From a virus, in the IMG/VR virus record IMGVR_UViG_3300022222_000021, positions 1-23,355 of that record: 23,355 nt of DNA; one strand, written 5' to 3'. Below, one piece after another: positions 349-19,058 of the stretch. The notes below the pieces were generated by a model. It worked only from the letters and a program-made list of their open reading frames with translations. It was not told the DNA's origin and made no database searches. The stretch's first letter is position 1. Each line of letters starts with the position of its first letter. Made by a program: the position numbers and the translations under genes.

Positions 349-361
349 CGTCTAATCGCAC
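349..361 (+). promoter_or_regulatory. Leaderless-type promoter element (CGTCTAATC) before the gene at 362
   Basis: The element reads GGCGTCTAATCGCACATG. TCTAAT (351-356) resembles a -10 box and ends 5 nt before the ATG at 362, which places a start of transcription on or next to the start codon. No Shine-Dalgarno sequence lies at a usable distance. No -35 box is convincing. The same 9-mer recurs at 7801, 12842 and 17023, and the 5-nt spacing is repeated at 12284 and 17036. Promoter function is inferred. Confidence 0.5.
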
Positions 362-961
362 ATGCCCCGCTACAAGTCACGCCCCATAGTTCAGGTGCGG
401 CTGCGCGGCCTGGTCGCGGAGGCTTCGGCCGTTGAGGTCGAGCTGGCCGATGGCCAGGTCGTTGGGCGCGTGGGCTCCGACGCAGTGGCGGTCGATTTGG
501 CGGACGCGCTGGCAGAGGCCGCCGGCAACACCGAAGACACCGCGGTGATGATCGGCGACCAGGCCCTCACGACGTCCTACGCGGACCTGCCGAGCCTCTC
601 CTTTGAGGTCGTCGCCAACAAGCACTACAGGTTCCGCTTCGAGATGGTGGCCACCGCCGACGCGGTCGGCACTGGCATCGACCTGGCGGTGAACGGGCCC
701 TCGGGCGAGGTCCTGATCGCCTATTCGCAGCTCTACCCCAGCGCGGTCAACGCCATGTGGTTCAAAGCGGCGGGGGCCTATGACGTCGACACCGCCAACA
801 CCGGGAGCGGCGGAACCACCCCCACGCGGTACGTCTGCGAGGGATCGCTTGTCACAGGCGCCTCGGGTGGGACGCTCACGGCCAGGGCCAAGTACGAGGC
901 CGCCGGCGTCTCGGCGACGGCCAAGGCCGGGTCCTGCGCGTTCCTGTGGACGCTGAGCTGA
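362..961 (+). CDS. Protein with a C-terminal virion-type beta domain
   Basis: 199 aa. The first ~60 residues are rich in Val, Ala and Asp. The rest resembles a beta-rich domain I know from many phage structural proteins: a segment like ALTTSYADLPSLSFEVVANK, then HYRFRFEMVATADAVGTGID, a NGPSGE turn, and an ending of the type VSATAKAGSCAFLWTLS. By family knowledge such domains sit in capsid decoration, fibre or other surface proteins, so a virion role is likely but not proven. The start is the ATG directly behind a TCTAAT box, with no ribosome binding site, so translation is probably leaderless. It precedes a strong promoter at 980, so it may be the last gene of a structural block whose earlier part lies left of the window. 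Confidence 0.75.
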   Translation: MPRYKSRPIVQVRLRGLVAEASAVEVELADGQVVGRVGSDAVAVDLADALAEAAGNTEDTAVMIGDQALTTSYADLPSLSFEVVANKHYRFRFEMVATADAVGTGIDLAVNGPSGEVLIAYSQLYPSAVNAMWFKAAGAYDVDTANTGSGGTTPTRYVCEGSLVTGASGGTLTARAKYEAAGVSATAKAGSCAFLWTLS

Positions 962-962
962 T

Positions 963-1008
963 GGTCATGTGTTGGTCACTTGACACCGATAGACCGTCAC
1001 CGTATCCT
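963..1008 (+). promoter_or_regulatory. Sigma70-type promoter with possible operator repeats
   Basis: A perfect -35 box TTGACA (980-985) and a -10 box TATCCT (1003-1008) are separated by exactly 17 nt, in the 67-nt gap before the gene at 1029. The expected transcript start is near 1015, giving a short leader with an AAGGAG ribosome binding site at 1019-1024. Just upstream, GGTCA occurs at 963-967 and 974-978, 11 nt apart (one helical turn), and TGAC inside the -35 box is the inverted core. This could be a regulator site overlapping the promoter. It is the only consensus sigma70 promoter I see, so it probably starts the early or middle operon. Confidence 0.8.
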
Positions 1009-1028
1009 GAGCCCTTCAAGGAGACCCC

Positions 1029-1526
1029 ATGGCAGCAAACCAGCCGCGAGTCCGTCTTCACGCAAACGGCGAAGCCCACCTGATCGCCCCCAACCTGATG
1101 ATGGTTGCCTCGTACGCCGAGATCAACAGCGGGAAGCTGCTGGCGGAGCTGGATGAGGTGATTGGGGAGTGTGCCGAGCAGCTCCACACCTACAGCGAGC
1201 GGACCAACGACAAGCGCGGCAAGGCGACGGTGACGATCAAGCTCGAGATCGGATACGACCCCGAGTACGACGGCCACGGCACGATCGTCCAGAAGATCGC
1301 CAAGGGATTCCCGGCCACGAAGCGCAAGGTGCTGGTGACGTTTGCAGGCGGGCGCATCCTGATCGACGCGACGGACAAGAACCTCCAGGGCCGCGCCGTC
1401 CGCGCCGTCCAGCAGATCGACCTGTTCACCGACCTGGGCGAGATCGTCGGGGTTGCCGATCCGGCCTCCGGCACGATGGAGAAGGTCGAATACCCGCCCA
1501 AGGCCAAGCCGCCCAAGACCGCCTGA
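1029..1526 (+). CDS. Conserved phage protein of the DUF2303 neighbourhood
   Basis: 165 aa, first gene behind the promoter at 980, with AAGGAG 5 nt before the ATG. The central part (GKATVTIKLEIGYD, then FPATKRKVLVTFAGGRILID) has the alternating pattern of a small beta domain; the C-terminus is Lys/Pro-rich (EYPPKAKPPKTA). In many phages a protein with a similar GKxTxTxxxE strand and a downstream F-x-x-GG/DG motif is encoded directly before a DUF2303 gene, as here. I know no established biochemical function. Being directly behind a strong promoter and upstream of DUF2303 and SSB genes suggests a role in early DNA metabolism, but that is inference from context only. Confidence 0.8.
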   Translation: MAANQPRVRLHANGEAHLIAPNLMMVASYAEINSGKLLAELDEVIGECAEQLHTYSERTNDKRGKATVTIKLEIGYDPEYDGHGTIVQKIAKGFPATKRKVLVTFAGGRILIDATDKNLQGRAVRAVQQIDLFTDLGEIVGVADPASGTMEKVEYPPKAKPPKTA

Positions 1527-1579
1527 ACCACTCCGCGGGAGTGCCAGCAACGAGCGGGAACCGAGAACCGAGGAAACCG

Positions 1580-2500
1580 ATGGAAAATCCGCAGAGGCCG
1601 CATCCGCATCCGATCGACAACGTGGTGGGTTCCCTGATCGAGGGCGCGGCCCAGAATGGCCGATCGTGGCTCCTGGACGCGGTCCGGGACAACGACGGCA
1701 AGGTGAAGATCGAGTTCGCCCACGTGCTCCCGCCCGTGGACGAGCACCTGAGTATCGCGGATGGCCGCGAGCACACCTTTGGGGACACCATGTCTCTGGC
1801 GCTGTACATGACCAGGTACGGCACCCCGCAGGGCTCGGTGATCTTCTACGACGAGAACGGCGTGCACGCCATCATCAACGAGCCGATCACTCGCGGCCAG
1901 CGCGAGATCGGCAAGTGCCAGTTCCGCTACAGCAGCGACTTCAAGGGGTGGAATGAGATCCTGGGAAAGGCCATTTCGCACCACGACCTGCGCGCCATGA
2001 TGGTGCCTCTCCAGCACACCGTTCGGACGCCGGAGTTCCTGCAGGCGCTCGGCTCGATCAAGTACGTCGAGAACGTCAAGCACGACACCGAGATCAAGGA
2101 GATCGACGGCGAGGCGTCCTACGGCGTGATGTTCACCGTGGCTGGTCAAGGGGAGTCCCTCAAGGAGATCCCCAGGACGCTGCGGATCGCCGTGCCCATC
2201 CTCGACGAGGACGTGATCGACCGTCAGGCGGTGGTCACGGTTGAGTGCACGGTCGCCCTCGACATGCCCAAGCGCCCCGGCGATCCGCTGCGGCTGGTGA
2301 TCCAGTGCCAGGAGCTTGAGATCATGCGGCGTGAGCGGCTCCGGACGGCGATGAACTCCCTCCGCGACGTGCTCGGCGCAACCGGGAGCGGCATCCCGGG
2401 CGAGTCGTGGCTGATCGTGGCCGGCCGCCCCGAGTACAAAGCCACCGTCAGCGGGGCCAAGCTCCGCTTCGAGGGATACCAGGTCGCCCTCCGCGACTGA
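1580..2500 (+). CDS. DUF2303 / YfdQ-like phage protein
   Basis: 306 aa. Resembles the DUF2303 family (YfdQ of E. coli prophage CPS-53): an N-terminal part with FGDTMSLALYMTRYGTPQGS (about residues 67-86), a segment on a stored or blocking value (VIFYDENGVHAIINEPI), and a C-terminal beta-rich half ending in long strands and an MRRERLRTAMNSLRDVLG helix. The role of the family is not established; it is common in recombination and replication blocks of phages near SSB or recombinase genes. The start chosen is ATG 1580, preceded by GAGGAAA; the frame is open further upstream, but that part overlaps the previous gene and is Arg/Pro-rich shadow. It is co-transcribed with the previous gene (53-nt gap) and followed by an SSB gene. 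Confidence 0.75.
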   Translation: MENPQRPHPHPIDNVVGSLIEGAAQNGRSWLLDAVRDNDGKVKIEFAHVLPPVDEHLSIADGREHTFGDTMSLALYMTRYGTPQGSVIFYDENGVHAIINEPITRGQREIGKCQFRYSSDFKGWNEILGKAISHHDLRAMMVPLQHTVRTPEFLQALGSIKYVENVKHDTEIKEIDGEASYGVMFTVAGQGESLKEIPRTLRIAVPILDEDVIDRQAVVTVECTVALDMPKRPGDPLRLVIQCQELEIMRRERLRTAMNSLRDVLGATGSGIPGESWLIVAGRPEYKATVSGAKLRFEGYQVALRD

Positions 2501-2515
2501 CAAGACCCTCCTTTA

Positions 2516-2547
2516 GCGGCCGGGTGCGCTCCCGTGCGCTCGGTCGC
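2516..2547 (+). other. Stem-loop directly upstream of the SSB start codon
   Basis: GCGGCCGGGTGC (2516-2527) can pair over 12 positions with GCGCTCGGTCGC (2536-2547), 9 Watson-Crick pairs and 3 G-U pairs, around the 8-nt loop GCTCCCGT. TTT follows and the SSB ATG is at 2553. No Shine-Dalgarno sequence exists between the stem and the ATG. It could be a weak terminator, an mRNA stabiliser, or a site for translational control of the SSB gene. Confidence 0.45.
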
Positions 2548-2552
2548 TTTCC

Positions 2553-2954
2553 ATGTACCAGAACGAAGTGACGATCAACGGCGTGGCCCGGGCGGAGTTC
2601 CAGCTCGAGAATGTGGGCCAGTCCCGCATCCCCAGGGCCATTGGGATCGTCGTGCTCGAGCGCCCGGCCCGCGACAATCTCGGCAGGGAGACGGTCGAGC
2701 CGATTGGAGTCGAGGTCGAGGCGTGGGGCGAGATGGCCAACGACGTCCGACGCAGCATTGCCGCCGGCTCGGAGGTGAAGGTGACGGGCGCCCTGCGGAA
2801 GTGGGGCAACAGGCTCGTGGTCCGGGCCAGTACGATGGAAGTCGGGGGACGCACTCTGGCGTCTACTCCATGGAAGGCCGCGCAGGGGAAGCAGGATGAA
2901 CGAGCTGGATACCGCGATGACGATCGCGATTGGTTTGGAATGGACAACGGCTGA
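2553..2954 (+). CDS. ssb: Single-stranded-DNA-binding protein (SSB-like, OB fold)
   Basis: 133 aa. The sequence has the SSB order: an N-terminal strand with NxVTINGVAR-type start (YQNEVTINGVARAEF), a core IGIVVLERPA strand, a VEVEAWGEMANDVRRSI segment matching the family's V-x-x-WG/F-x-x-A/L-A-x-x-x-x-x-x-L/I-x-x-G pattern, then GSEVKVTGALRKW (OB strand 4) and an acidic tail with RDDDRDWFGMDNG. The family coats ssDNA during replication and recombination. The tail is acidic and carries an aromatic residue but lacks the usual DDDxPF ending, so partner-protein recruitment may differ from cellular SSB. The start has no ribosome binding site and follows a stem-loop at 2516-2547. The 3' end overlaps the next gene by 59 nt. 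Confidence 0.8.
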   Translation: MYQNEVTINGVARAEFQLENVGQSRIPRAIGIVVLERPARDNLGRETVEPIGVEVEAWGEMANDVRRSIAAGSEVKVTGALRKWGNRLVVRASTMEVGGRTLASTPWKAAQGKQDERAGYRDDDRDWFGMDNG

Positions 2955-3243
2955 GCTGGCCCGGGAGCGATACCGGGCCCAGACGGGCCGCGGCGTGGCC
3001 CTTGGAAAGACGCGGGAGGCTCTGGGCCGCATTGAGCGTGCCGGCTTCATAGAGAGTATCGTGGACCCGGGCCGGAACCGGGTCTGGCGAATGACGCCCG
3101 AGGGCGGCGCGTTCGTCAAGGGGAGAATCGCCCAGGTCACAGGTGACATGCCGCAGACGATCATGGGCGTCCCGGTGGAGAGGAAGCGGAATGGACCAGG
3201 CAGTTGCGCGACGGGTGCTGAGTCTCCGTCGCAAGAGCAGTGA
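2896..3243 (+). CDS. Small winged-helix-type DNA-binding protein
   Basis: 115 aa. Residues about 10-75 read like a winged helix: a helix (WTTAELARERYRAQTG), a second (LGKTREALGRIERAGFIES) and a wing with a beta hairpin (VDPGRNRVWRMTPEGGAFV). This layout is that of MarR/PadR-like or phage wHTH regulators, in which the RxxLxRLExxGxI helix leads into the wing. The C-terminal 35 residues are low complexity. The start at 2896 has AGGGGAAG upstream and overlaps the SSB 3' end by 59 nt. Position in the early block suggests a transcription regulator or replication accessory factor; no specific target can be read. An alternative ATG lies at 2917. Confidence 0.65.
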   Translation: MNELDTAMTIAIGLEWTTAELARERYRAQTGRGVALGKTREALGRIERAGFIESIVDPGRNRVWRMTPEGGAFVKGRIAQVTGDMPQTIMGVPVERKRNGPGSCATGAESPSQEQ

Positions 3244-3469
3244 AGTCCGGCGGACCGAGAGCATGATGGCGACGCTGACCGTGCTCGTCGCGGCGGCGAC
3301 CTTGGTCGCCAGCGTGTGCTGGGGATTCGAGGTTGCCACATGCGAGCTGGTTGCGATCCTGGGCACGGTGCTGGGGGTACTGGTCTTTTGCACGCTGCTG
3401 CTGAACGCCTACCGCTGGTCCCTGCACGACAAGAGCCTGGCCATTGAGCACCGCGAGAACGCCGCGTGA
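3191..3469 (+). CDS. Two-pass small membrane protein
   Basis: 92 aa. Two hydrophobic segments are clear: MMATLTVLVAAATLVASVC (about residues 25-43) and LVAILGTVLGVLVFCTLLL (about 51-70), separated by an acidic turn (WGFEVATCE); both ends are charged. The start at 3191 has GAGAGGAAG 5 nt upstream; the frame is open upstream but without support. The gene overlaps the previous one by 53 nt and ends in a GTGA overlap with the ParB-like gene. Size and topology fit a holin, a superinfection-exclusion peptide or another small phage membrane protein. Function is not decided by the sequence. Confidence 0.6.
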   Translation: MDQAVARRVLSLRRKSSEVRRTESMMATLTVLVAAATLVASVCWGFEVATCELVAILGTVLGVLVFCTLLLNAYRWSLHDKSLAIEHRENAA

Positions 3470-4143
3470 GCAAGCGCAAGCCGACGAGCATCTGGGTGCC
3501 CATCGACACGGTGGTGCCGCACCCGTTGAACGCCAACATGATGTCCGATGAGCAGAGGGCGAAGCTGGATGCCTCGATCGGCACCTGGGAGTTCGCGCCC
3601 TGCATCGTCCGGTCACTCGAGATGAGCGAGGACTTCAAGGCCGAGCATGCCGCGGGCAAGCTCCAGTGCCTCGACGGGGAGCATCGGTGGCGCCGGGAGA
3701 TCGACCGGGGGGCGTCGGAGATCGAGGTCCGGGTCTGGAAGGGCGTGCCGGACACCAGGGCGGTGCTGCTGCTCAAGACCCTGAACCCGCTCCGGGGCGA
3801 GCACGACAAGAAAAAGGACGCCGAGCTGCTGCGGATCCTGCACGCGGCGTCGCCGGACCCCGCGGAGCTGGCCAAGATCCTGCCGGAGACGGAGGACCAG
3901 ATCAGGCGGATCATCGCCGAGCTGGACCGGGGCGACGTCCAGGACGCCACGACGCGGGCGCGGGCGATCACGATGCGGACGCCGCTGATGGTGTACTGCG
4001 GGCCCGGGCAGGTGGAGATCATCCGCCGGGCGCTCCGCGAGCAGATGCGGCGGATGGACGCGGCGCACCAGACAGTCGATTGCGAGGATGGCGAGGCGCT
4101 GTCCATGATCTGCCAGGCGTACCTCGACTCGCTGGAGGGGTGA
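3466..4143 (+). CDS. ParB-like nuclease-domain protein
   Basis: 225 aa, GTG start inside a GTGA overlap with the stop of the membrane-protein gene. The N-terminal ~105 residues show a ParB/sulfiredoxin-fold domain: IWVPIDTVVPHPLNANMM (the usual I-x-x-l-x-P-x-p-x-N-x-x start), SIGTWEFAPCIVRS and the hallmark LDGEHRWRREI (residues 69-79; family motif D/GEHR). The C-terminal half is helical and charged (DAELLRILHAASPDPAELAKILPETEDQIRRII), probably a DNA-binding or specificity part. Phage ParB-like proteins often sit beside DNA methyltransferases, as here (52-nt gap), and may act as site-specific DNA-binding or nicking partners. No ParA is visible, so true plasmid-type partition is unlikely. Confidence 0.75.
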   Translation: MSKRKPTSIWVPIDTVVPHPLNANMMSDEQRAKLDASIGTWEFAPCIVRSLEMSEDFKAEHAAGKLQCLDGEHRWRREIDRGASEIEVRVWKGVPDTRAVLLLKTLNPLRGEHDKKKDAELLRILHAASPDPAELAKILPETEDQIRRIIAELDRGDVQDATTRARAITMRTPLMVYCGPGQVEIIRRALREQMRRMDAAHQTVDCEDGEALSMICQAYLDSLEG

Positions 4144-4195
4144 CGACGGGTCAGGCCAATGATTCGATCCGGATTCGGAAAGGACGCCTCCCTCG

Positions 4196-5476
4196 ATGAC
4201 AACCGCCCAGGCCGAAACTACAGCCTTCATCGACCTGTTCGCGGGTTGCGGTGGATTGTCTCTTGGCTTGAAGCAGGCTGGGTGGCGGGGGGTCTTCGCG
4301 GTGGAGCGGGACTCGATGGCATTCGCCACGTTCCGCCGGAACTTCCTGAAGGGACGCGAGACGATCAAGTTCGACTGGCCTCGCTGGCTGGAAACAAAGG
4401 CATGGTCGCTCGATGAGATGCTCGAGGCGCACGCTAAAGATGTCGCCTCGCTTGCCGGGCAGATCGACGTTGTCGTAGGGGGACCTCCTTGTCAGGGATT
4501 TTCGTTCGCTGGCCGTCGCCACAAGGCCGATCCGCGGAATCAACTCTTCAAGGGGTACGTTGAACTCGTTCGACTCGTGCGCCCGTCAGCCCTCATCATT
4601 GAAAACGTACCTGGGATGAAAGTGGCGCACGGGAGTGGACGCCGCGTTCCCGGCCCCAAGCCGAAGTCCTTTTACGACGAGCTGGTCGCGGCACTGGACG
4701 ACGCCGGATACGCCGCCTTGGGACGCATTCTTGACGCATCCACATTTGGCGTGCCGCAGCGGCGTTCACGGTTGGTGGTCATCGGCCTCAAGAAAGACCT
4801 TGCTGAGAGTCTTCCAGGCGGGCTGGGCCGCGCGTTCGATCTGATCGAGCAGCACCGAAAGCTGCAGCTCGCGGCGTTGGGTCTGGCTGCGCCCGTGAGC
4901 GTCAGCGATGCGCTGGGAGACTTGCTGACTGACGGCGTCGAGCGATTGCCTTGCCAGGACAAGGAGTCTCCGAAGGGCTTCCTTGTTGCCAAGTACTCGG
5001 CTCCTTCCACGACGTATCAGAAGCTCATGCATGGTGATCTCTCGGCCACCGAGATGGACAGCATGCGATTGGTCCGGCATACGGACAACGTTGTTGCGCG
5101 ATTCAAGAAGATACTACAGAAGTGTCCGAGGGGCGTCCGGATGAACGACGCAAATCGAGAGAGCTTCGGGATTCGCAAGCACCGTGTCTACCCGATGGCC
5201 CCCGCCCAGCCGGCACCAACAGTGACCACGCTCCCGGATGATGTCCTGCATTATGCTGAGCCTCGGATTCTGACTGTGCGCGAGTCGGCGAGGCTGCAAT
5301 CCTTCCCGGATTGGTTCGCGTTCGCGGGCAAGTACACGACTGGCGGTGACCGGCGCACCCGCGAGTGCCCGCGTTACACACAGGTCGGCAATGCCGTACC
5401 GCCCCTCATGGCCACAGTGCTAGGCATGGCAGTCGCCGCCCTGTTGGCCGAGTCAAGGAATGCCGGGAGCGAGTAG
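4196..5476 (+). CDS. C5-cytosine DNA methyltransferase
   Basis: 426 aa with all core motifs in order: I DLFAGCGGLSLGL (SAM binding, residues 13-25), IV GGPPCQGFS with catalytic Cys99, VI ENVPGM (136-141), VIII QRRSRLVVIG (188-197), a target-recognition region (about 200-330), IX RESARLQSFP and X QVGNAVPP near the C-terminus. The enzyme transfers methyl from SAM to C5 of cytosine; the target site cannot be read. No restriction nuclease gene is next to it, so it looks like an orphan methyltransferase, perhaps protecting phage DNA from host restriction. AAGGA lies 11 nt before the ATG. Codon third positions are visibly richer in A/T than in flanking genes, which suggests recent acquisition. An intact gene; no frameshift. 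Confidence 0.95.
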   Translation: MTTAQAETTAFIDLFAGCGGLSLGLKQAGWRGVFAVERDSMAFATFRRNFLKGRETIKFDWPRWLETKAWSLDEMLEAHAKDVASLAGQIDVVVGGPPCQGFSFAGRRHKADPRNQLFKGYVELVRLVRPSALIIENVPGMKVAHGSGRRVPGPKPKSFYDELVAALDDAGYAALGRILDASTFGVPQRRSRLVVIGLKKDLAESLPGGLGRAFDLIEQHRKLQLAALGLAAPVSVSDALGDLLTDGVERLPCQDKESPKGFLVAKYSAPSTTYQKLMHGDLSATEMDSMRLVRHTDNVVARFKKILQKCPRGVRMNDANRESFGIRKHRVYPMAPAQPAPTVTTLPDDVLHYAEPRILTVRESARLQSFPDWFAFAGKYTTGGDRRTRECPRYTQVGNAVPPLMATVLGMAVAALLAESRNAGSE

Positions 5477-5527
5477 TTTTCTCGCACACGGAGCAGTGGG
5501 GCGGACTCGGGAGGGACTTTGGGAGGA

Positions 5528-5557: not shown

Positions 5558-5564
5558 GCCGCCG

Positions 5565-6296: not shown

Positions 6297-8166
6297 CGTG
6301 GTCGGTCCCAAGCCCAAACCGGATCGCCAACCCAACGAGATCGTGACCATCCTCGTCACCAGGCCTGACGGGCGGAAGGTGCAGACTCCCATCCGCCGCG
6401 ACGTGCTCGTGCGTAGGGCCATGGCCGCGCAGGTGGCACGCCGGACGATGCACCTGGCCCTGAATGTCCACATCACCGACAAGGGCCAGCCGATCGTGCT
6501 GGACCCCCAGTGGGAGCAGATTTACGCCGATCCCTCCCCCGACATGCGGATCATCGCCCCCGCCCAGCGCGGCAAGACCACCTACGAGATCGTGAAGACC
6601 CTCGCCCAGTGCTCGCTGGGGCTGGCGGTGGGCTGGGTCATGCCCAAGCACGCCAAGGTGATCGAGCTGGTGAACGGCAAGCTCAACCCCACGATCAAGA
6701 ACACCCCCTACTACCAGGAGCTTCAGGAGATCGCCGACGCGACGGACGCGACGTCCTTCAAGCGGTTCGGGCCGCACGGGAAGCTCTACATCGTCACGGC
6801 CAACTCCGAGGACGAGCTGACGTCGTTCACCGCGGACTGCATGCACATCGACGAGCGGGACTTCTGCAATCGCACGAACCTGCCCATGTACCCGAAGCGC
6901 ATGAACGCGTCGGACTACAAGCTCAGCGACGAGATTTCAACCCCCACCGTCGAGGGCTCCGAGCTGAACGCCGGCGCCCCGGGCAACGACAACATCCACG
7001 CGGAGTTCCTCGCCGGCGACCAGCACCGCTACTTCCACGACTGCGAGCACTGCGGCGAGCGGCAGATCATCGACTGGTACGACAACGTCGTGATTACCAG
7101 GATCGACGACTCGGGCCGCATTATGACCTTCGACGTCCGCGACAAGGACTGGTCGCCCGGCTCCCCGCGGGACATCCGGCCATGCTGCCGCTACCCGAAG
7201 TGCGGGCGGCCGATGAACCGCTTTGCCCCCGGCCTCTGGATCCCCCAGCGCCCCGGCCGCAAGATCCGGTCGTACTGGACGGAGGCCCTGTCAACCCGCA
7301 TCGGGCCGACGATGGACACCCTGATCGACACCTTCAGCAAGAGCCTGGGGAACCCGTCCAAGCTCCAGCAGTTCAACAACATGGACCTGGGGCGGCCATT
7401 CTCCGGCGGCACGCTGCGCATCAACCGCAAGATGTTCGAGCGGTGCACCGCCAAGGGCCGGCGCATGGTCTCCTCATCCGAGCAGCCGACCACCATCGGG
7501 ATCGACGTCAACCGCCCGTGGCTCGACTACCAGATCAGCCGATGGGACGACGGGAAGCAGATCAAGGTCCACGCCGGCCGGCTCGCGGGTGGGGTGGACG
7601 AGGTGATCCAGGTTCTCAAGCGATTCCGGGTCGTGGGTGGGGTGATCGACCACCAGCCCGAGGCGAAGTTCGCCATGAGCGTGCAGGAAGCCGCCATGGC
7701 CGAGCTGAAGATCCCGATCGTCCGGTGCAAATACGCCACGAACGACCAGCACAAGATGGTCGTCGTCTCCGAGGCAGGCGACGGCCGCCTGGACCCGCCG
7801 CGTCTAATCACAGTGCACCGGACAGTGGCGATCGACACGATCTACGAGTGGCACCTGACCAACCAGATCGAGTGGTTCGAGGATTGGACGGTGGCGGTGG
7901 ACGGACGGCTCTTTGATGAGATGAGCCGGCCGGTGCGGAAGCTGGTCATCAACGACCAGGGCAACGAGCGTTTCACCTGGGAGGGCATCCCAGACCACCA
8001 GCTCCACGCGGCCGTCTACGACATGCTGGCCGGCCTCGTGCTCGGATTCGACACCGTGCTCGACTACTCCGAGATCCGCCCGATGATGAACGTGTACACC
8101 GAGAGCGCCCCCAAGCTCATCGACCCCCGACGCGACGACGCTGGCATGATGATCCTGCGAGGATGA
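6184..8166 (+). CDS. Terminase large subunit, GpA type
   Basis: 660 aa, ATPase-nuclease of the packaging motor. Walker A is APAQRGKT (residues 125-132), Walker B MHIDER (220-225). A Cys cluster follows: CEHC (287, 290) and CCRYPKC (334-340), a zinc-ribbon-like insertion typical of the GpA family (lambda gpA). The C-terminal nuclease part has acidic residues in IGIDVN (Asp441), GVIDHQ (Asp489) and PDHQLHAAVYD (Asp604), at the usual three places of the RNase-H-like fold. Length fits the family. ATG 6184 has GAGGTGG upstream; a second start option (MMKAL at 6256) has no ribosome site. A copy of the CGTCTAATC element sits inside the gene at 7801. Confidence 0.93.
   Translation: MNQHPDQRFFRTILPTPPKIPRQPMMKALTKTRRRIRDVVGPKPKPDRQPNEIVTILVTRPDGRKVQTPIRRDVLVRRAMAAQVARRTMHLALNVHITDKGQPIVLDPQWEQIYADPSPDMRIIAPAQRGKTTYEIVKTLAQCSLGLAVGWVMPKHAKVIELVNGKLNPTIKNTPYYQELQEIADATDATSFKRFGPHGKLYIVTANSEDELTSFTADCMHIDERDFCNRTNLPMYPKRMNASDYKLSDEISTPTVEGSELNAGAPGNDNIHAEFLAGDQHRYFHDCEHCGERQIIDWYDNVVITRIDDSGRIMTFDVRDKDWSPGSPRDIRPCCRYPKCGRPMNRFAPGLWIPQRPGRKIRSYWTEALSTRIGPTMDTLIDTFSKSLGNPSKLQQFNNMDLGRPFSGGTLRINRKMFERCTAKGRRMVSSSEQPTTIGIDVNRPWLDYQISRWDDGKQIKVHAGRLAGGVDEVIQVLKRFRVVGGVIDHQPEAKFAMSVQEAAMAELKIPIVRCKYATNDQHKMVVVSEAGDGRLDPPRLITVHRTVAIDTIYEWHLTNQIEWFEDWTVAVDGRLFDEMSRPVRKLVINDQGNERFTWEGIPDHQLHAAVYDMLAGLVLGFDTVLDYSEIRPMMNVYTESAPKLIDPRRDDAGMMILRG
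7800..7810 (+). promoter_or_regulatory. Internal GCGTCTAATCA element in terL
   Basis: An exact copy of the 11-mer also found at 12841 and 17022. Here it lies inside the nuclease part of terL, where it codes Arg-Leu-Ile. TCTAAT (7803-7808) is 4 nt before an in-frame GTG (codon 544). It could be an internal promoter for portal and head genes or a chance coding match. The CTA leucine codon is out of line with the gene's strong preference for CTG/CTC. Confidence 0.3.
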
Positions 8167-8167: not shown

Positions 8168-9844
8168 ATGAGCCGAATCGTCTCCATCACGAAGTCCGCG
8201 GTCGGAAGCCTGGGCGATCTGCTCTCCGGGCGGTACTCGACGCCCGAGCCGTCGCCGCTGGTGGGCGGCCCAGCCGGCGGCGTGTCCACGGCGGGCGACC
8301 CCAAGCTCACCCCATGGTTCAACACCGTGCAGGTCCCGATGGACCGGGTGCGCGAGATGCAGTACTACGACTTCCTGGAGACCAACATCTCCGACGTGCC
8401 GCGGGCACTGGACGCCTTCGCCACCATGGCCGTCACGGGCGACCTCTCGGGCGGCGGGACGCGGACCTACGCCGTGCGGATGGTCAACCCGCCCGACGAG
8501 TACCCCGAGGAACTGAAGGCCAGGTTCCGCCGGCTCGAGACCATCATCCGTGAGTCGTCGTTCCAGACGGTGCGGGCGATGTGCAAGTACGGGTCCTTCA
8601 TGCCGGAGAACGTGCTGGCCATGATGGCGGACAATCGGCTGGGCGTGGCGCACCTCCGCCCCATCCCGCCGGCGACGATCTTCCGCAACTTCGACTCCAC
8701 CGGCCGCTGGACCCCCGAGGCGTACTGGGCCCAGCAGATCACCCAGACGAGCCCGCCCAGCAACGGCGTCCGCCTCCAGCTCGACGCCAAGGCCAAGACC
8801 TTCCCGATCTGGCGGATGCCCCACTTCGCCCTGTGGTCCAACGGCGGTGTCTCGGCCACCGAGACGCTCCTGTACGGCCGCAGCATCCTCAAGCCATTCG
8901 GGGCGATCGGGCTCAAGGTCCACGGCGTGCTCGACTCGATGGTGCTGGCCCGCCTCACCCGCGCGGCGATGCGCTACCGCTGGAAGGTGGACGTCTCGGA
9001 CCTCAAGGGCGACCCCAAGCAGATCATGAAGCGGCTGGCGATGTGGAAGCAGTCGGTCACGCGCTCCACCACCGGCATCGGATCCGCCCAGGACTCGTAC
9101 AAGAAGCCGCCCACCCCGGACGAGGACTTCTTCATCGCCTCCGGCGAGGGGCTCGCTTACGACCTCGACACGATCGACGGCGACACCAACCTCGCCCGCG
9201 TGCAGGACGTGGAGCTGCTGTTCCGCGTCTACTTCGGCGCGCTGGGCGTGCCCCCGGAGTACCTGGGCCACGAGCGGAGCCAGGGCGGCCGGAGCAACCT
9301 GTCCCAGATCGACATCAACTTCGCCCGCACCGCGCGGCACATCCAGATGTACGGCGCGGCCGGCTATCAGCACATGGTCTGGGTGGACATGCTGGCCGGC
9401 GGGTACGACCCGCTGAAGTACCCGGTGGAGATCATCTCGCCCCAGATCGGGGCCCGCGACGACCTCCTGCAGGCCCAGATCCGGGCGCTCCAGGCCGGTG
9501 TCATCCTCACCCTCCGCCAGGCTGGCATGAAGCTGGAGAAGCACCCGCGGTGGGTCCTCTCGACGTTCCTGAACATGAGCGACGAGCTGGAAGGGCTCGA
9601 CGAGGGCGAACTCGCCGACCTGTTCGACGACATGCAGATCGAGGGCGGCGAGAAGCCCAAGGGTGTCGGCCGGCGCGCTGTCGAGTCGGTGCTCGCCCAG
9701 CTCCACAGCGAGATCGGGCCGCTGGTCCGGGAGAACATCTTGGCCCTGCTCGGGCAGAAGTCGCCGGAGATCCAGCTCGCCCTGTCCAGCTCGCTGGAGA
9801 CCCTGGACATGCTCCGGTCCGGCATGTTCGAGGTGGGCAGGTGA
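8168..9844 (+). CDS. Portal protein
   Basis: 558 aa, start 1 nt after the terL stop, with GCGAGGAT as ribosome site. It resembles phage portals, especially the T4 gp20-like group: an N-terminal variable part, KPFGAIGLKVHGVLDSMVLA and then LTRAAMRYRWKVDVSDLKGD (the crown and wing region), and the motif LGVPPEYLGHERSQGG followed by SNLSQIDINFARTARHIQ, typical of the helix that lines the portal channel. The dodecameric portal forms the DNA entry vertex and docks TerL. The position between terL and the Mu F-like gene is the standard order. The acidic stretch LEGLDEGELADLFDDMQIEG near the C-terminus probably starts the crown. Confidence in portal is high; in the gp20 subgroup moderate. Confidence 0.85.
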   Translation: MSRIVSITKSAVGSLGDLLSGRYSTPEPSPLVGGPAGGVSTAGDPKLTPWFNTVQVPMDRVREMQYYDFLETNISDVPRALDAFATMAVTGDLSGGGTRTYAVRMVNPPDEYPEELKARFRRLETIIRESSFQTVRAMCKYGSFMPENVLAMMADNRLGVAHLRPIPPATIFRNFDSTGRWTPEAYWAQQITQTSPPSNGVRLQLDAKAKTFPIWRMPHFALWSNGGVSATETLLYGRSILKPFGAIGLKVHGVLDSMVLARLTRAAMRYRWKVDVSDLKGDPKQIMKRLAMWKQSVTRSTTGIGSAQDSYKKPPTPDEDFFIASGEGLAYDLDTIDGDTNLARVQDVELLFRVYFGALGVPPEYLGHERSQGGRSNLSQIDINFARTARHIQMYGAAGYQHMVWVDMLAGGYDPLKYPVEIISPQIGARDDLLQAQIRALQAGVILTLRQAGMKLEKHPRWVLSTFLNMSDELEGLDEGELADLFDDMQIEGGEKPKGVGRRAVESVLAQLHSEIGPLVRENILALLGQKSPEIQLALSSSLETLDMLRSGMFEVGR

Positions 9845-12235: not shown

Positions 12236-12259
12236 AAGGCCCCGAAAGGGGCCTTCTTC
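12236..12259 (+). terminator. Rho-independent terminator after the packaging/membrane operon
   Basis: AAGGCCCC (12236-12243), loop GAAA, GGGGCCTT (12248-12255), then CTTC. An 8-bp perfect stem with a GNRA tetraloop. The T tract is short and interrupted. It closes the operon that began at terS and lies just upstream of a new promoter-like element. Confidence 0.85.
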
Positions 12260-12270
12260 ATGCGCCCGTG

Positions 12271-12283
12271 CGTCTACTCAGAT
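12271..12283 (+). promoter_or_regulatory. Leaderless-type promoter element before the prohead protease
   Basis: The stretch GTGCGTCTACTCAGATATG places TCTACT (12273-12278) exactly 5 nt before ATG 12284, the same spacing as at 362 and 17036. It lies 15 nt behind a terminator, where a new transcription start is needed, and no Shine-Dalgarno sequence is present. CGTCTAC alone also occurs by chance in Val-Tyr codons, so the support is context and spacing. Confidence 0.5.
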
Positions 12284-13687
12284 ATGCCAGGCCTTCTCAA
12301 GCGCGTGACAACCCCGACCAAGCCCACGCCGCGCGGCACCGAAGTAACCGCGTCGGAGCACTTCGACGTGCGCGCGAAGTTTGTCGCGCTGGAGAAGATG
12401 GGCGACAAGGGCACGAAGGGTCGGCTCGGCCGACTCATCTACGAGTTCGAGACGGCCGACGTCCTGAACGTCAATCGCCGCATCTACCCGCAGGCCGTTG
12501 TGGCCATGGCCATCGCGGGGCTCAACGGGCGCTGCGAGAAGAACCAGGTCTTCGGCGGCCTCGACCATCCCGCGCCGTGGGACCACAACGCGCTGCTCGT
12601 CACGCTCGACGATGCCGCGATCAAGGTTGACTCGGTGGAGATGGTCGGCGAGACGCTCGCGCGTGTGACCGTCGACGTCATGGACAACGAAAAAGGCCGC
12701 AAGATCATGGCGATTCTCGCCGTGGAAGGCAACCCAGGAATCAGCCATCGCGCTGCCGTGCGCTGGCGTGATCCCACGCAGCAAGAGCGGCTCGAGTACA
12801 AGATCCCTGACAACACTTTTGTCGACGTTGCTGAGGCGATGCGTCTAATCACGTACGACATCGTCAGTGAGCCCGGATTCGCCGGTGCGGACGGCGCGAC
12901 AGTGACGGAGCAAGCAACTCCAGGAGCGGACGAAATGAAGACTCCCGCCGAACTCAAGGCAGCCCACCCGGCCCTGTACGACCTCATGATCGCCGAAGGG
13001 CGCGCTCTGGCGCTGGGCGACGCCGACGCGAAGGTGAAGGCCGCGAACGAGGCAGCCGCCACCAAGCATGCCGCGGAGCTGAAGACGGTCCAGGAGGCGC
13101 TGGCCGCGACCCAAACCAATCTCAAGATCGCCACCGAGGCGCTGAGCGGCCTCAAGACCGCGCAGAAGACGCTGGGCATCGTCAATGAGCAGATCACCGA
13201 CGCCCATGCCGCGGCCAAGATCGCCACGGCCGAGGGCGAGGTGAAGGCCCTCACCACCCGCGTCGCCACGCTGGAGGCCGAGAAGAAGACTCTGGGCGAC
13301 CAGGTCGAGACCGGCCTCAAGATCGGCCGCGTGCGGACCGCGCTCGAGGCGGTCGCGACCCAGTACCAGGGCAGCCCGGCCAAGAACCTCATCCTCAAGC
13401 GGGTCGCCCGCCTGGGCATCGAGGACACCAACAAGGCGCTCGAGGCCGCTCGGACCGAGCTGGCGGACCTGGAGGCGGCGGGCTTGGTGCCGCGGGCGAC
13501 GCCCGCCGGCAACCCGGGCGGCGGCGGGGGCGGCAACCCCCACATGACCACGGAGAACCTGCTCAACGGCCTGCTCGACGCCAACCCGCAGAACCCGGCC
13601 GCGGGCAGCGGCGGCGGCGGGTACCAGGTCGGCACCGAAAATGCCCTCGGAGCGATGGCGCTCCGCGGCCACAGCTTCGCCGTCTAA
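12284..13687 (+). CDS. Prohead protease fused to scaffold (T4 gp21-like)
   Basis: 467 aa from ATG 12284 (an ATG at 12260 would add 8 residues but lies on the terminator's 3' flank). The N-terminal ~205 residues resemble the T4 gp21 (S80) prohead protease: ADVLNVNRRIYP (usual N-x-N-x-R-x-YP), FGGLDHP with the probable catalytic His95, and EGNPGISHRAAV with the probable nucleophile Ser154, then ITYDIVSEPGFAGA. The rest is a long Ala/Lys/Glu-rich coiled coil (about 218-400), a Gly-rich linker and a C-terminal tail ending in ALRGHSFAV that probably binds capsid protein. Such a fusion guides capsid assembly and is then digested. An internal start at 12935 may make scaffold alone. Confidence 0.82.
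   Translation: MPGLLKRVTTPTKPTPRGTEVTASEHFDVRAKFVALEKMGDKGTKGRLGRLIYEFETADVLNVNRRIYPQAVVAMAIAGLNGRCEKNQVFGGLDHPAPWDHNALLVTLDDAAIKVDSVEMVGETLARVTVDVMDNEKGRKIMAILAVEGNPGISHRAAVRWRDPTQQERLEYKIPDNTFVDVAEAMRLITYDIVSEPGFAGADGATVTEQATPGADEMKTPAELKAAHPALYDLMIAEGRALALGDADAKVKAANEAAATKHAAELKTVQEALAATQTNLKIATEALSGLKTAQKTLGIVNEQITDAHAAAKIATAEGEVKALTTRVATLEAEKKTLGDQVETGLKIGRVRTALEAVATQYQGSPAKNLILKRVARLGIEDTNKALEAARTELADLEAAGLVPRATPAGNPGGGGGGNPHMTTENLLNGLLDANPQNPAAGSGGGGYQVGTENALGAMALRGHSFAV
12841..12851 (+). promoter_or_regulatory. Internal GCGTCTAATCA element upstream of the scaffold start
   Basis: Exact copy of the 11-mer at 7800 and 17022, in frame as Arg-Leu-Ile of the protease. TCTAAT is at 12844-12849, about 86 nt before the internal scaffold ATG at 12935. 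It could be the promoter of a separate scaffold mRNA. Coding chance cannot be excluded. Confidence 0.35.
12935..13687 (+). CDS. Scaffold protein from an internal in-frame start
   Basis: 250 aa, the C-terminal part of the protease-scaffold gene. ATG 12935 is preceded by AGGAG (12922-12926) at 8-nt spacing, an excellent ribosome site with no role in the full-length product. The start falls exactly at the border between the protease domain (ending EPGFAGADGATV) and the scaffold (MKTPAELKAAHPALYDLM). Nested scaffold production of this kind is well known for lambda C/Nu3. The product would be a long coiled coil plus the capsid-binding tail and would outnumber the full fusion in the procapsid. Inferred from the sequence only. 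Confidence 0.6.
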   Translation: MKTPAELKAAHPALYDLMIAEGRALALGDADAKVKAANEAAATKHAAELKTVQEALAATQTNLKIATEALSGLKTAQKTLGIVNEQITDAHAAAKIATAEGEVKALTTRVATLEAEKKTLGDQVETGLKIGRVRTALEAVATQYQGSPAKNLILKRVARLGIEDTNKALEAARTELADLEAAGLVPRATPAGNPGGGGGGNPHMTTENLLNGLLDANPQNPAAGSGGGGYQVGTENALGAMALRGHSFAV

Positions 13688-13694: not shown

Positions 13695-13714
13695 ACCCGA
13701 CACCCCCGGAGCTT

Positions 13715-13733
13715 TGCGGTGCCGCACACCGCA
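13715..13733 (+). other. Stem-loop in the capsid gene leader
   Basis: TGCGGTG (13715-13721), loop CCGCA, CACCGCA (13727-13733): a 7-bp perfect stem, then GGGCTCTT. It lies in the 111-nt gap before the capsid gene. It may protect the 5' end of the capsid mRNA or act as a weak terminator. Confidence 0.45.
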
Positions 13734-13798
13734 GGGCTCTTCCCTGAACCGCACCCAGCCGGCCCGACCGGGCGACGGGCAAGACACACGAGGTCCCA

Positions 13799-15082: not shown

Positions 15083-15103
15083 TAGATCGTCCTGACTGAG
15101 GCG

Positions 15104-15146
15104 GCAAGGGGCGGGGGCTCATAACCCCCGCCCCTTGCTATTCTGT
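15104..15146 (+). terminator. Strong rho-independent terminator after the capsid gene
   Basis: A 14-bp perfect stem: GCAAGGGGCGGGGG (15104-15117), loop CTCATAA, CCCCCGCCCCTTGC (15125-15138), followed by TATTCTGT. It is the strongest terminator in the window. The T-rich tail doubles as an extended -10 box for the next gene. Confidence 0.9.
15136..15144 (+). promoter_or_regulatory. Extended -10 box (TGCTATTCT) overlapping the terminator tail
   Basis: TATTCT (15139-15144) with TGC before it forms an extended -10 and ends 6 nt before ATG 15151, which has no Shine-Dalgarno sequence. No -35 box exists, since that place is the terminator stem. A promoter giving a leaderless mRNA is inferred. Confidence 0.45.
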
Positions 15147-15150
15147 CGGG

Positions 15151-15630
15151 ATGCTCGCCTGGACAACCTCCACCACCCCTCGCACCATCCTCCGGAGCAC
15201 GGCGTTGCACCTGTGGCCGCGGTGGCTGACCCTGGTCCAGCCGTCCAGCGTCTCCGGGCTCTCCAACGTCAAGCTCTACCGGACGCTCATGGACTGGGCA
15301 GAGGAGCACAACCCCAAGCGGCTGTGCTTCGTTCGCACGCACGCGCTGGGAGACATCGTTATGCTCGTGCCGGTCTGCCGGGCGCTGTCCCGCCTGCTCG
15401 GGCTCGAGAGCACCAAGATCCTCGTGCAACGGCGGTTTGTCTCGGCTCTGGGAGCCAGGCACCCCGGCGTCGAGTTCGCCCCCTACATCTCGGGCAAGAT
15501 GGACTGGGGGGCGGACGCGCATCTGGACCTGAACCACGCCCTGGAGCGCGACCACCGCGGCGGCCTGGAGAGCAACAAGCACCGCGTCGAGCTGTACGCC
15601 GATGCCATGGGCCTGGAGATGATCCGATGA
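15151..15630 (+). CDS. Half-length GT9-family (heptosyltransferase-like) protein
   Basis: 159 aa. The core LCFVRTHALGDIVMLVPVCR (about residues 53-72) matches the N-terminal Rossmann start of glycosyltransferase family 9 (usual pattern vir.ghlGDvl...pair.Lr), followed by a helix and a RFVSALGARHPGVEFAPYI strand-turn. The usual length is about 350 aa; this protein has only the N-terminal half and lacks the sugar-nucleotide-binding C-terminal domain, so it may not act alone. Its stop overlaps the next start (ATGA at 15627), and the next gene encodes a full GT9 protein, so a two-subunit enzyme or a decayed copy is possible. The ATG has no ribosome site and follows an extended -10 box. Confidence 0.72.
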   Translation: MLAWTTSTTPRTILRSTALHLWPRWLTLVQPSSVSGLSNVKLYRTLMDWAEEHNPKRLCFVRTHALGDIVMLVPVCRALSRLLGLESTKILVQRRFVSALGARHPGVEFAPYISGKMDWGADAHLDLNHALERDHRGGLESNKHRVELYADAMGLEMIR

Positions 15631-16862: not shown

Positions 16863-17020
16863 CGATCCAGAGGCAAAGGACCTTCGAGACGCCGATCGAC
16901 GCCCACCTCGCACTGACCCTGTGAGCCCACCGGCGACCGCTCATCCAGGGCCGGATCACCAGCCCCGCGACCGACTTCTGGTCTCGGATTGCCTCGTTCA
17001 CCGTCCACCGCAACAGCGCG

Positions 17021-17035
17021 GGCGTCTAATCAGGC
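17021..17035 (+). promoter_or_regulatory. Leaderless-type promoter element (GCGTCTAATCA) before the connector gene
   Basis: GGGCGTCTAATCAGGCATG: TCTAAT (17025-17030) ends 5 nt before ATG 17036. This matches 349-361 in the box, the flanking CG and the spacing. The 173-nt gap 16863-17035 holds no open frame or terminator I can support and no clear -35 box. Confidence 0.55.
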
Positions 17036-17755
17036 ATGGCACTCGACCTCAACGAGCTGATCGACGCGCTCAAGATCCACAGCCCGGACGGCGTCGAGAT
17101 CCCGCGCAACCCAGACGACAACCAGCCCCACGAGCCCACCATCGCCCGCTGGGCGGCCGATGCCGCCCAAGCCATCAACGCCAAGCGCGGCCGCACCACC
17201 TCGCTCGAGACCACGATCACGACCGTTGATGGCACCACCGACTACGCGATGCCGACCGGGTGCCGCGAGATCACCAGGATCCGGCGCGACCACGGCACGA
17301 CGGGCGGGCCCCGCGAGGTCGCCGGCATCCCCGTCAACGCGTACATGAGCGGGATGGTCCCGTTCGGCACTCTCCCCTCCGGACAGCAGATGTCGGCCTC
17401 CCTGGACTTCCTCAACCGCCAGCAGCTCGGCGCGGTGCAGCGCGAGGACACCTTTGAGCTGCGTGGCGAGAAGGTCCGCTTCCTGTTCCCGATCCGGGAC
17501 GGCGAGCAGATCATCGTCCGCTACGAGGTGGTGGACCGCGACCTGGAGTCGATCCCGGAGGACCGCTTCGAGCTGGTGCTCGCGTACCTGAAGATGAAGA
17601 ACCTCAAGTGGTTCATCGACAAGCAGGGCGCGGCGATCGCGGTGGACGGGGACCGGCTCGCCGGCGACAGCATCATGGTGCTCATGCGCCGCATGCGCGA
17701 TCTGGACAACGAGTGGACCGAGGGGCTCAACGCCATCCAGGCCGAGGTGGAGTGA
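17036..17755 (+). CDS. Head-tail connector / adaptor protein
   Basis: 239 aa. An N-terminal helical part (LDLNELIDALKIHSPDGVEI, then ARWAADAAQAIN), a central beta-rich part (TTVDGTTDYAMPTGCREITR, DTFELRGEKVRFLFPIRDGE, then QIIVRYEVVDRDLESIPED) and a C-terminal helical part (FELVLAYLKMKNLKWFIDKQ). The pattern of a strand-forming middle and the motif IPEDRFELVLAYLKMK, i.e. membrane-independent helical packing after a DG-x-x-I/V strand, is seen in phage neck and adaptor proteins that join the portal to the tail. The position (after capsid, before the gp10-like and tube genes) supports a connector. Exact family not established. The start lies behind a TCTAAT box; the stop overlaps a small ORF. 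Confidence 0.68.
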   Translation: MALDLNELIDALKIHSPDGVEIPRNPDDNQPHEPTIARWAADAAQAINAKRGRTTSLETTITTVDGTTDYAMPTGCREITRIRRDHGTTGGPREVAGIPVNAYMSGMVPFGTLPSGQQMSASLDFLNRQQLGAVQREDTFELRGEKVRFLFPIRDGEQIIVRYEVVDRDLESIPEDRFELVLAYLKMKNLKWFIDKQGAAIAVDGDRLAGDSIMVLMRRMRDLDNEWTEGLNAIQAEVE

Positions 17756-17821
17756 TGCTGCCAGGCCAGACCGTCATTGAGACGCGTGAGGGGTGGATGG
17801 GGTGGCCGTAAGGAGCGGGCT

Positions 17822-18469
17822 ATGCCGGTCATCGTCCGGGTCATCAACGCGAAGCGGCTCTTGCTCGCCCTGGTGCGACTCGAGCGCGCGATCGGCACCG
17901 CCTCCTCGACGTTGATTGGCCGCAAGCTCGCCAACGAGGGGCTCGGGTACATCAAGCGCGTGACGCCGGTGAATCGCTCCCAGGGCCGCCTGCCCGGGTC
18001 GCGCCGCGGGTACCAGCCGTTCCGCGACCAGTGGGAGGTGATCGAGAAGATCACGCTCGACAACCACTACCAGGCCGTGATCCGCAACCAGGCCCTCGAC
18101 ACCGGCGGCGGCATCGCGCTGGCCTCCCTGGAGTTCGGAGCCCGACCCCACAGGATCCCCAAGCACGGCTACGCGATGATGAAGTGGCACCAGGACGGCG
18201 GGCGGAGCCGGTTCGGCGGGCGGAGCAGCGATCTGGCCAGCGAGATCAACCGCTCGAGTTCTCGCCCCGGCCGCGTCTCGGACACCCTCGACATCGACTC
18301 CTCGGACGAGGCCTTCGTGCTCGCCCGCCGCGTCAACCACCCTGGGCACAAGCCCTACCGTATGGTCGCCGAAACCCGCGAGCACCTCCGCCGCGTGTCC
18401 AACACCGCGCTCGCCCAGTTCGCCGGCGAGATCGAGCGGATCTTCGGGCCCTTGAGCATTTCACCGTGA
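17822..18469 (+). CDS. HK97 gp10-like neck/tail-completion protein
   Basis: 215 aa from ATG 17822, with AAGGAG at 17811-17816; an upstream ATG at 17777 has no ribosome site. The HK97 gp10 family shows in LEFGARPHRIPKHGY (residues 103-117) and in FVLARRVNHPGHKPYRMV near residue 180, the family's GT/ARPHRI...RxVxHPGxKPxPF pattern. Between them sits a Gly/Arg/Ser-rich insert (WHQDGGRSRFGGRSSDL). Members attach the tail to the connector. The C-terminal helix (LRRVSNTALAQFAGEIERIF) is typical. The gap to the next gene is 7 nt. Confidence 0.82.
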   Translation: MPVIVRVINAKRLLLALVRLERAIGTASSTLIGRKLANEGLGYIKRVTPVNRSQGRLPGSRRGYQPFRDQWEVIEKITLDNHYQAVIRNQALDTGGGIALASLEFGARPHRIPKHGYAMMKWHQDGGRSRFGGRSSDLASEINRSSSRPGRVSDTLDIDSSDEAFVLARRVNHPGHKPYRMVAETREHLRRVSNTALAQFAGEIERIFGPLSISP

Positions 18470-18476
18470 GGTCGCC

Positions 18477-19037
18477 ATGCCAGCCCTTGAAGAGCCGATT
18501 TACCAGGTCCTCCGCGCCCAGCAGGCCAACATCGCCCGGATCGCCTCCGGCCTCGTGGTGAGCGGCACCGGCGGCAATGGCGGGGCGGTGACGCTCTGGG
18601 GGGCGACGCCCAACATCGTCCGCCTCTACGACCGTCCGTTGCGCTTCGCCCAGGACGCCGCCAAAGAGGGGTGGGAGCGGATCATCACCCTCCTGCCCGT
18701 CGTCAACGATGGCGCCGACCGCATCGTGGGGAGGAACGACCGGCGCGCCCAGTACCAGGTTCAGATGCTCGTGCGGCTGACCCAGCAGGAGGTCACCGCA
18801 GACCGGCAGCAGGTGGTCATCGGGGGCGTCGTCGACGATAACCCCCTGGCGGCCAAGATGCACCGCCTCCTCTACGACTTCCACCACGTCTTCTTCGACA
18901 ACCACCTGCTCGCCACGGACGATTGCCCGAACGGCCTGGTGGACGACGCGAAGTACTCCCTGGCGTGGGCCGCTGACGCCGATTACCCCATGGCGCTGGT
19001 GGTGGCGACGGTGCTGTGCGAGATTTCGGCATATTGA
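18477..19037 (+). CDS. Tail terminator or tail completion protein candidate
   Basis: 186 aa. Between the gp10-like and tail-tube genes, where the tail terminator or completion protein is normally encoded. An N-terminal helix (EEPIYQVLRAQQANIARIAS), a hydrophobic GLVVSGTGGNGGAVTLWG segment, then strands such as ERIITLLPVVNDGADRIVGR and a RAQYQVQMLVRL strand typical of the tail terminator alpha-beta fold. The C-terminus is strand-forming (LVVATVLCEISAY). GAGG precedes the ATG. The family is not directly recognised, so the call rests on position and general pattern. Confidence 0.55.
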   Translation: MPALEEPIYQVLRAQQANIARIASGLVVSGTGGNGGAVTLWGATPNIVRLYDRPLRFAQDAAKEGWERIITLLPVVNDGADRIVGRNDRRAQYQVQMLVRLTQQEVTADRQQVVIGGVVDDNPLAAKMHRLLYDFHHVFFDNHLLATDDCPNGLVDDAKYSLAWAADADYPMALVVATVLCEISAY

Positions 19038-19050
19038 CTGGGCCGAGGTG

Positions 19051-19058
19051 CGTCTAAA
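19051..19058 (+). promoter_or_regulatory. Promoter-like element (CGTCTAAA) upstream of the tail-tube gene
   Basis: TCTAAA (19053-19058) in GTGCGTCTAAACAGG belongs to the same series as at 349, 7801, 12841, 13681 and 17021. TTGACT (19034-19039) lies upstream but only 13 nt away, too close for a normal -35. Transcription would start near 19064, giving a ~33-nt leader with GGAGG at 19085-19089. Confidence 0.4.

Follow-up and report, generated by a model that had tools for sequence, protein, structure and literature searches.

A recurrent single-element, promoter-like sequence upstream of virion genes in a phage with a T4-type head module

Late promoters that lack a -35 box are described for the phages phiEco32 and T4. 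Those of phiEco32, of the middle/late class, consist of single 9-bp elements (tAATGTAtA) with transcription starting 6-8 bp downstream, and the phage sigma factor gp36 lacks region 4 (PMC8948821), while the T4 late promoter is an 8-bp TATA box roughly one turn of the helix ahead of the start, with the sliding clamp serving as activator in the gp55/gp33/gp45 system (PMC2988020). Late promoters situated inside genes are known from phage AR9 (PMC5312081). A CGTCTA or CGTCTT -10 element is listed for many targets of Streptomyces sigma-E (PMC6767563), and leaderless genes carry a TANNNT box about 12 bp before the start (PMC3160421). Here we describe a recurrent nine-base element, GCGTCTANT, in the IMG/VR virus record IMGVR_UViG_3300022222_000021, the entire length of which (23,355 bases; 66 % GC) is referred to as the window. 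The element is probably a phage-specific, single-element -10 promoter that would serve mainly virion (late) genes, some of them leaderless, and be read by a phage-specified factor.

The window encodes a T4-type head module, comprising a terminase (GpA family), a T4-type portal, a head maturation protease, a Gp23 capsid protein, an SU10 adaptor and a tail tube. Contigs from other records overlap it with 99.4-100 % identity across the shared stretches, and these were used to extend the sequence at both ends, with G002 (U) adding 9.97 kb on the upstream side and G004 (D) 23.3 kb on the downstream side. The window and flanking pieces, treated side by side, amount to 56.6 kb with 52 called genes, as delineated with a simple gene caller of our own and with a few starts set by hand.

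The repeat is genuine: it is a promoter-like element specific to the phage, and its statistical and positional support is strong. The word CGTCTAATC, which the initial annotation placed at 349, 7801, 12842 and 17023, occurs at exactly these positions and on the + strand only, with four copies in the window against 0.06 expected (0/100 shuffles reach four). It is preceded by G at all four sites and followed by A at three and by G at 349, so that the three 11-mer copies counted previously are correct. The claim that composition does not account for the repeats also stands: under a codon-preserving null, with synonymous codons shuffled within genes and dinucleotides between genes (2000 shuffles), 0.02 copies of CGTCTAATC are expected in the window and no shuffle reaches four. 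For GCGTCTANT, there are seven copies in the window (0.31 expected), ten in the whole 56.6 kb (0.35 expected), all on the + strand, and three in the 33 kb of flanks outside the previously annotated window (0.04 expected), with 0/2000 shuffles reaching these counts in each case. Each of the three flank copies precedes a start codon by no more than 45 nt (null 0.011; 0/2000). The rarity of CTA and TAA triplets had been given as a reason for surprise; this holds for TAA (21 on the + strand), while CTA was seen 103 times, though it is rare as a codon (13/1461 leucine codons). Three of these thirteen codons are accounted for by in-frame CGT CTA ATC (at 7801, 12842 and one in D).

The presence of every copy on one strand would fit a polar genome-maintenance signal, such as a Chi, KOPS or packaging-like oriented repeat. 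However, all called genes but one share the strand of the element copies, and 7/10 copies of GCGTCTANT have a start at most 45 nt downstream (null 0.038), which makes such a signal highly improbable. Likewise, chance and codon usage, with the word picked after the fact, are a very unlikely source of the repeat. By first-order Markov score the repeat is not significant, with an equally surprising word in 236/300 null windows, and a loose one-mismatch family of CGTCTAAT, with 11 matches against 6.6 expected (8/100 shuffles reach 11), was dropped; both speak for chance. Against it stands a look-elsewhere test of words with at least four copies, in which each word was compared with its own null mean: with the cut set to 0.05, two words are found in the real window, both belonging to this repeat, and none in any of 400 null windows. 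This outcome depends on the cut, with none in the real window at 0.03 (the means being 0.0325 and 0.0375) and one word in one null window at 0.1. The flank copies, all of which precede starts, argue against chance in the same manner. By the Markov score, another word, AGCAGATCA, outscores the repeat in the real window.

A position weight matrix (PWM), built from the seven GCGTCTANT sites near starts and hence partly circular, distinguishes eleven sites (Table 1) at 12.7-18.7 bits, all on the + strand and eight of them within 60 nt of a start. A clear gap follows, and matches of 12.0 to 8.0 bits are spread over the two strands without any of them coming within 60 nt of a start. GCGTCTA is invariant in 11/11 sites, position 8 is variable, and the ninth base is T in 10/11 (A at 19050). 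Near variants had been noted at 12271, 19051 and 13681, of which the first two rank among the true sites, at 16.9 and 12.7 bits, respectively. The third, proposed as a capsid gene site, is not among the best 60 PWM matches and was dropped. The sites at 2860 and 9226, the three sites outside the window and the exact 5-nt spacing to the ATG at 362, 12284 and 17036 had been overlooked; the initial annotation is extended here by the leaderless geometry and by sites beyond the window.

Table 1. Element copies and the associated hairpin (window coordinates unless a contig is named)
Sequence	Position	Strand	Context
GCGTCTAAT	348..356	+	5 nt before ATG 362 (199-aa protein); leaderless type
GCGTCTACT	2859..2867	+	28 nt before ATG 2896 (115 aa); inside gene 2553-2954 (weak SSB match)
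GCGTCTAAT	7800..7808	+	inside terminase large subunit gene, codons CGT CTA ATC
GCGTCTACT	9225..9233	+	inside portal gene, read GTC TAC (V Y)
GCGTCTACT	12270..12278	+	5 nt before ATG 12284 (prohead protease-scaffold); leaderless type
GCGTCTAAT	12841..12849	+	inside protease-scaffold gene, 85 nt before in-frame ATG 12935 with AGGAG upstream
GCGTCTAAT	17022..17030	+	5 nt before ATG 17036 (SU10-type adaptor, PF24175); leaderless type
GCGTCTAAA (weaker)	19050..19058	+	38 nt before ATG 19097 (tail tube, PF18906), which has GGAGG
	5328 of L213	+	outside the window
	8842 of L011	+	outside the window
	9962 of L212	+	outside the window
AAGGCCCCGAAAGGGGCCTT, then CTTC	12236..12255	+	terminator-like hairpin, -15.9 kcal/mol, z -3.9; ~14-15 nt before the 12270 element

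The sites had been described as lacking a clear -35 box, and this is borne out. No word shared by the sites between 48 and 12 nt upstream is commoner than in random draws, and a shared second element within 60 nt upstream was not found. The AAC-type -35 of extracytoplasmic function (ECF) sigma factors, at 15-19 nt, is present at 0/11 sites (null mean 0.66). The sigma-70 form does not apply either, as the best TTGACA-like -35 boxes carry 2-4 mismatches and the -10 would be TCTANT, not TANNNT. In contrast, two promoters of the form TTGACA-N17-TATTCT/TATCCT, with 10/12 consensus bases each, occur before U3457 (NikA-like) and W1029, and the products of these genes have no virion matches.

In its architecture the element resembles the phiEco32 late promoters, with one conserved 9-bp element and no -35 before late genes (PMC8948821). 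It differs in that its sequence, with a GC-rich 5' half, is unrelated to the tAATGTAtA consensus, in that phiEco32 encodes a sigma factor and none was found in the incomplete genome at hand, and in that four starts would be leaderless. A -10-only late promoter of the T4 kind had been proposed. A single-box promoter without a -35 is indeed the best supported form, given the enrichment, the lack of a second box, the virion targets and the phiEco32-like spacing, while membership of the T4 type does not hold on account of the sequence. The likeness to T4 lies in the single box without a -35, the T4-type head genes and the phage's own sliding clamp, which is of the DnaN type (minus strand, 8367-9575 of L008; all three Pfam domains), whereas GCGTCTANT is not a TATA box and differs from the 8-bp TATAAATA-type box with which it had been compared. 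The core matches the CGTC(TA) -10 of ECF sigma targets, but the AAC-type -35 carried by the listed sigma-E targets is absent here in 11/11, and additional positions around the hexamer are conserved. Similarly, the box position fits that of TA-led leaderless genes, with the sequence TCTANT instead of TANNNT.

Including the eleventh, weaker copy before the tail tube gene, 8/11 sites lie 5-38 nt before a start. The distance from the end of the core to the start is 5 nt at 362, 12284 and 17036 and 7 nt at the tape measure gene on G004, and 18 nt at U5355, 28 nt at 2896, 30 nt at the tail protein gene on G004 and 38 nt at 19097. The virion targets include the protease gene, the adaptor, the tail tube, the tail protein (phrog_4271) and the tape measure (phrog_24, E 4e-4), the last of which comes after a tail-chaperone-like gene. 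The products of 362 and U5355 have no family hit in the library scans, and that of 2896 has weak matches to transcription regulators and nothing stronger. The proposal that the sites fall before genes whose products are needed in bulk or in a distinct ratio fits the protease-scaffold, the adaptor and the tail tube and possibly the internal scaffold ATG, and is not sustained for the capsid (13681); for the 7801 copy, a target is not evident, the candidates being an in-frame GTG at 7813 or the portal gene at 8168.

None of the four genes abutting the element (5-7 nt) has a Shine-Dalgarno (SD) match of at least 4 bases at 4-12 nt; in two of them such a match does occur more distally, at 13 and 15 nt, next to the box. 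Among the four genes with a distant element, for which the predicted leaders would be about 11-33 nt long, two have GGAG or GGAGG and two have AGGGGA-type runs only. No site is found 8-17 nt before a start, a range in which a leader would hardly accommodate a ribosome site. Were transcription to start 6-8 nt after the box, as in phiEco32, four mRNAs would begin at the A of the AUG. The exact 5-nt spacing at three genes without a usable SD site could alternatively mark a translation signal, with the element acting just before the AUG as an alternative ribosome-recruiting or mRNA-binding site in place of SD. Its TCTAATC is moreover complementary to the 790 loop of 16S rRNA, which we take to read GATTAGA. 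Yet four other genes have the element at 18-38 nt, two of them with good SD sites, the invariant GCGTC lies outside the 16S complementarity, position 8 varies, and one copy is found 14 nt past a terminator-like hairpin, so that a translation signal appears unlikely. Elsewhere in the phage, at 15104-15163, a very strong hairpin (-33.7 kcal/mol) follows the capsid gene, after which TATTCT is found 6 nt before the ATG at 15151 with no SD; this gene has the classical leaderless TANNNT arrangement.

The promoter reading rests on the enrichment upstream of starts, the lack of a second element, the virion targets and a spacing equal to that of phiEco32. RNA polymerase with a phage-specified specificity factor would recognise the nine-base element with no contact at -35, and transcription would begin 6-8 nt past it. 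At a spacing of 5-7 nt to the ATG (362, the protease-scaffold gene at 12284, the adaptor gene at 17036 and the tape measure gene on G004), the start would coincide with the A of the AUG and the mRNA would be leaderless; at 18-38 nt, it would carry a short leader. The site of initiation, its timing and the reading factor are what we infer here from the observed sequence, spacing, enrichment, targets and absence of a shared -35. As supporting context, the 12270 element comes directly after a terminator-like hairpin.

Several observations weigh against a promoter. GCGTCTANT was defined only after all of the sequence had been inspected, and the strict CGTCTAATC has one copy in the flanks against 0.02 expected (41/2000 shuffles). 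The strong copies at 7800 and 9225, the latter possibly a chance occurrence, are not near any start, and no copy directly precedes the capsid gene. A 4-base SD match is missing from the 20 nt upstream of 15/51 genes, so its lack is not special, and two SD-poor genes have a distant element; as genes without SD are not rare here, the contrast between abutting and distant elements is suggestive, not clean. The relatives, with 99.4-100 % identity and identical elements, are too close for a comparative test. Finally, no sigma factor was found among the 50/52 genes (all but U8839 and U9387) scanned against at least one of Pfam, PHROGs and NCBIfam, in an incomplete genome and with no dedicated gp55 or RNA polymerase model among the profiles.

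The initial annotation had suggested that a dedicated sigma factor or a gp55-like protein might be encoded elsewhere in the genome. The Sigma70_r2 profile matches 0/4 records of this incomplete genome, with a gp55 model not included, and the Sigma70_r4_2 profile reaches only E 0.06, within a LexA-like protein. Similarly, neither gp55 nor gp33 of T4 turned up in the library scans, which included no dedicated model for them and covered an incomplete genome. As the core contains CGTCTA, the listed -10 of several Streptomyces sigma-E targets, and the phiEco32 sigma factor lacks region 4, an ECF-like factor without -35 contact is the natural candidate reader. The LexA-type and the regulator-like (2896) proteins, both encoded by the phage, and the element before the 2896 gene itself could point instead to an operator for a DNA-binding regulator of this kind, distinct from the promoter proper. 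However, the element is non-palindromic, has a single orientation and a -10-like position, and no shared promoter box lies beside it, which renders an operator improbable.

The copy inside the protease-scaffold gene is a candidate promoter for separate scaffold expression. Among the in-frame starts listed downstream of it (12902, 12935, 12986 and 13034), only 12935 has an AGGAG-type site. The Pfam protease match covers residues 38-158 and ends before ATG 12935, while the PHROG protease profile extends past it, to residue 320. The position and, by eye, the sequence of the protein following the Pfam match suggest that this part is the scaffold; the 250-residue product from ATG 12935 has weak matches only, to families without a function. 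Under the promoter reading, this copy would probably yield a shorter mRNA and extra scaffold from ATG 12935. The hairpin preceding the 12270 element is not listed by a consensus terminator scan. Between the protease-scaffold and capsid genes, a further strong hairpin is located at 13708-13740, with -24.2 kcal/mol calculated over 13704-13744; it might act as a partial terminator or stabilise the mRNA and so set the protease-scaffold to capsid ratio.

Scans of viral contigs with the capsid, terminase, tail tube, portal and tail proteins recovered only contigs 98-100 % identical in protein; with the DUF4406 protein, the matches were the contig that encodes it and 24 distant contigs, and the phage was not extended by them. 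No match was obtained by megablast in a set of 50,697 phage records. The best-ranked terminase match among named phages has 24 % identity over 80 % of the terminase, and others reach up to 26 % over less. Of 392 Planctomycetota genomes, 8 contain terminase matches; three are strong, at 29-32 % identity and E 7e-48 or better, and the E-values of this search and of that against phages are not on one scale. The strong homologues are situated on Planctomycetota contigs of 8-18 kb (L199, L200 and L201). The portal query gave one weak match in the 392 genomes and none in the three with a strong terminase, perhaps as a result of short contigs; with the capsid query, the three genomes from the order of G087 yielded no match. 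Two minus-strand genes at the downstream terminus of G004 (206-1246 and 1567-1803 of L013) encode a protein of the prepilin type and a homologue of CsrA, with a repeated unit TGGTCGGCGCTGCC(C)TGACCACAAGGGG between the two genes; the region is either host DNA at a prophage edge or carried by the phage. The prepilin-type protein has an H-X9-DG-like motif just under the cut-off, of a type presumably common in planctomycetes and their kin, and a pilin query of genome contigs confirmed no relative. Together, the terminase matches and the prepilin-type protein point tentatively to a planctomycete-like host.

Two wider distributions of the element were considered and rejected. The pattern GGCGTCTAATC-N4-ATG occurs in 41 viral contigs, three of which represent this phage, and a GTA control in 20; among the 38 unrelated contigs, two (L020 and L039) have an open reading frame (ORF) of at least 100 aa from that ATG, with no Pfam hit for the 530-aa product of L020. 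In genomes the spaced pattern is found in at least 120 stretches, and the 80 listed derive from many phyla, with 8/80 starting an ORF of at least 100 aa. A phylum-wide host promoter was rejected in turn: the pattern is present in 180/392 Planctomycetota genomes, with reversed-control counts similar or higher by eye and a highest count per genome of 7 (G380; control 3). As regards the phage specificity assumed by the initial annotation, no enrichment over the reversed control is thus visible in these 392 genomes of the likely host phylum, a scan that leaves room for a rarely used host sigma factor reading the element. A single GCGTCTANT copy, in L207, is present across four Planctomycetota contigs that carry terminase homologues.

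Other features of the phage DNA include a C5 DNA methyltransferase gene (window 4196-5476), a gene for a ParB-like/methyltransferase-type domain protein (3466-4143) and, by eye, a second open frame resembling a C5 methyltransferase on the upstream contig (10255-11189 of L008, minus strand). Two strain indels are evident, namely 66 bp of the intergenic region upstream of the adaptor gene (16868-16933) missing from G003 and G004, and ~830 bp extra in G002 after the methyltransferase gene, at 5488/5489. The C-terminal part of a 1037-aa gene, possibly a fibre (U5660-8773; ~8325-9140 of L213), is duplicated in the next gene, U8839-9387, ~730 bp away. An Rfam search gave no match.

It is possible, and suggested here tentatively, that the element represents a promoter class of its own. 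This would be a one-box late promoter, GC-rich and ECF-like, recognised without -35 contact by a phage factor that has escaped notice; transcription would start at the AUG of several virion genes (protease-scaffold, adaptor and tape measure), giving leaderless mRNAs, and the internal copy would tune the scaffold to protease ratio. Among the papers listed by a literature search on planctomycetes and phage sigma factors there was no report of such a promoter, among those listed for leaderless late promoters of phages there was nothing with this element, and the listed papers containing the literal GCGTCTAAT are, judged by title, unrelated. If the promoter reading is true, a phage whose host is probably planctomycete-like would have a one-box late promoter unlike those of T4 and phiEco32 in sequence. 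Precise transcript starts follow from this reading, on the A of the AUG at four genes, as does a specificity factor that has gone unrecognised. The element would further provide a route, at the level of the DNA, to separate expression of the scaffold from a fused protease-scaffold gene.

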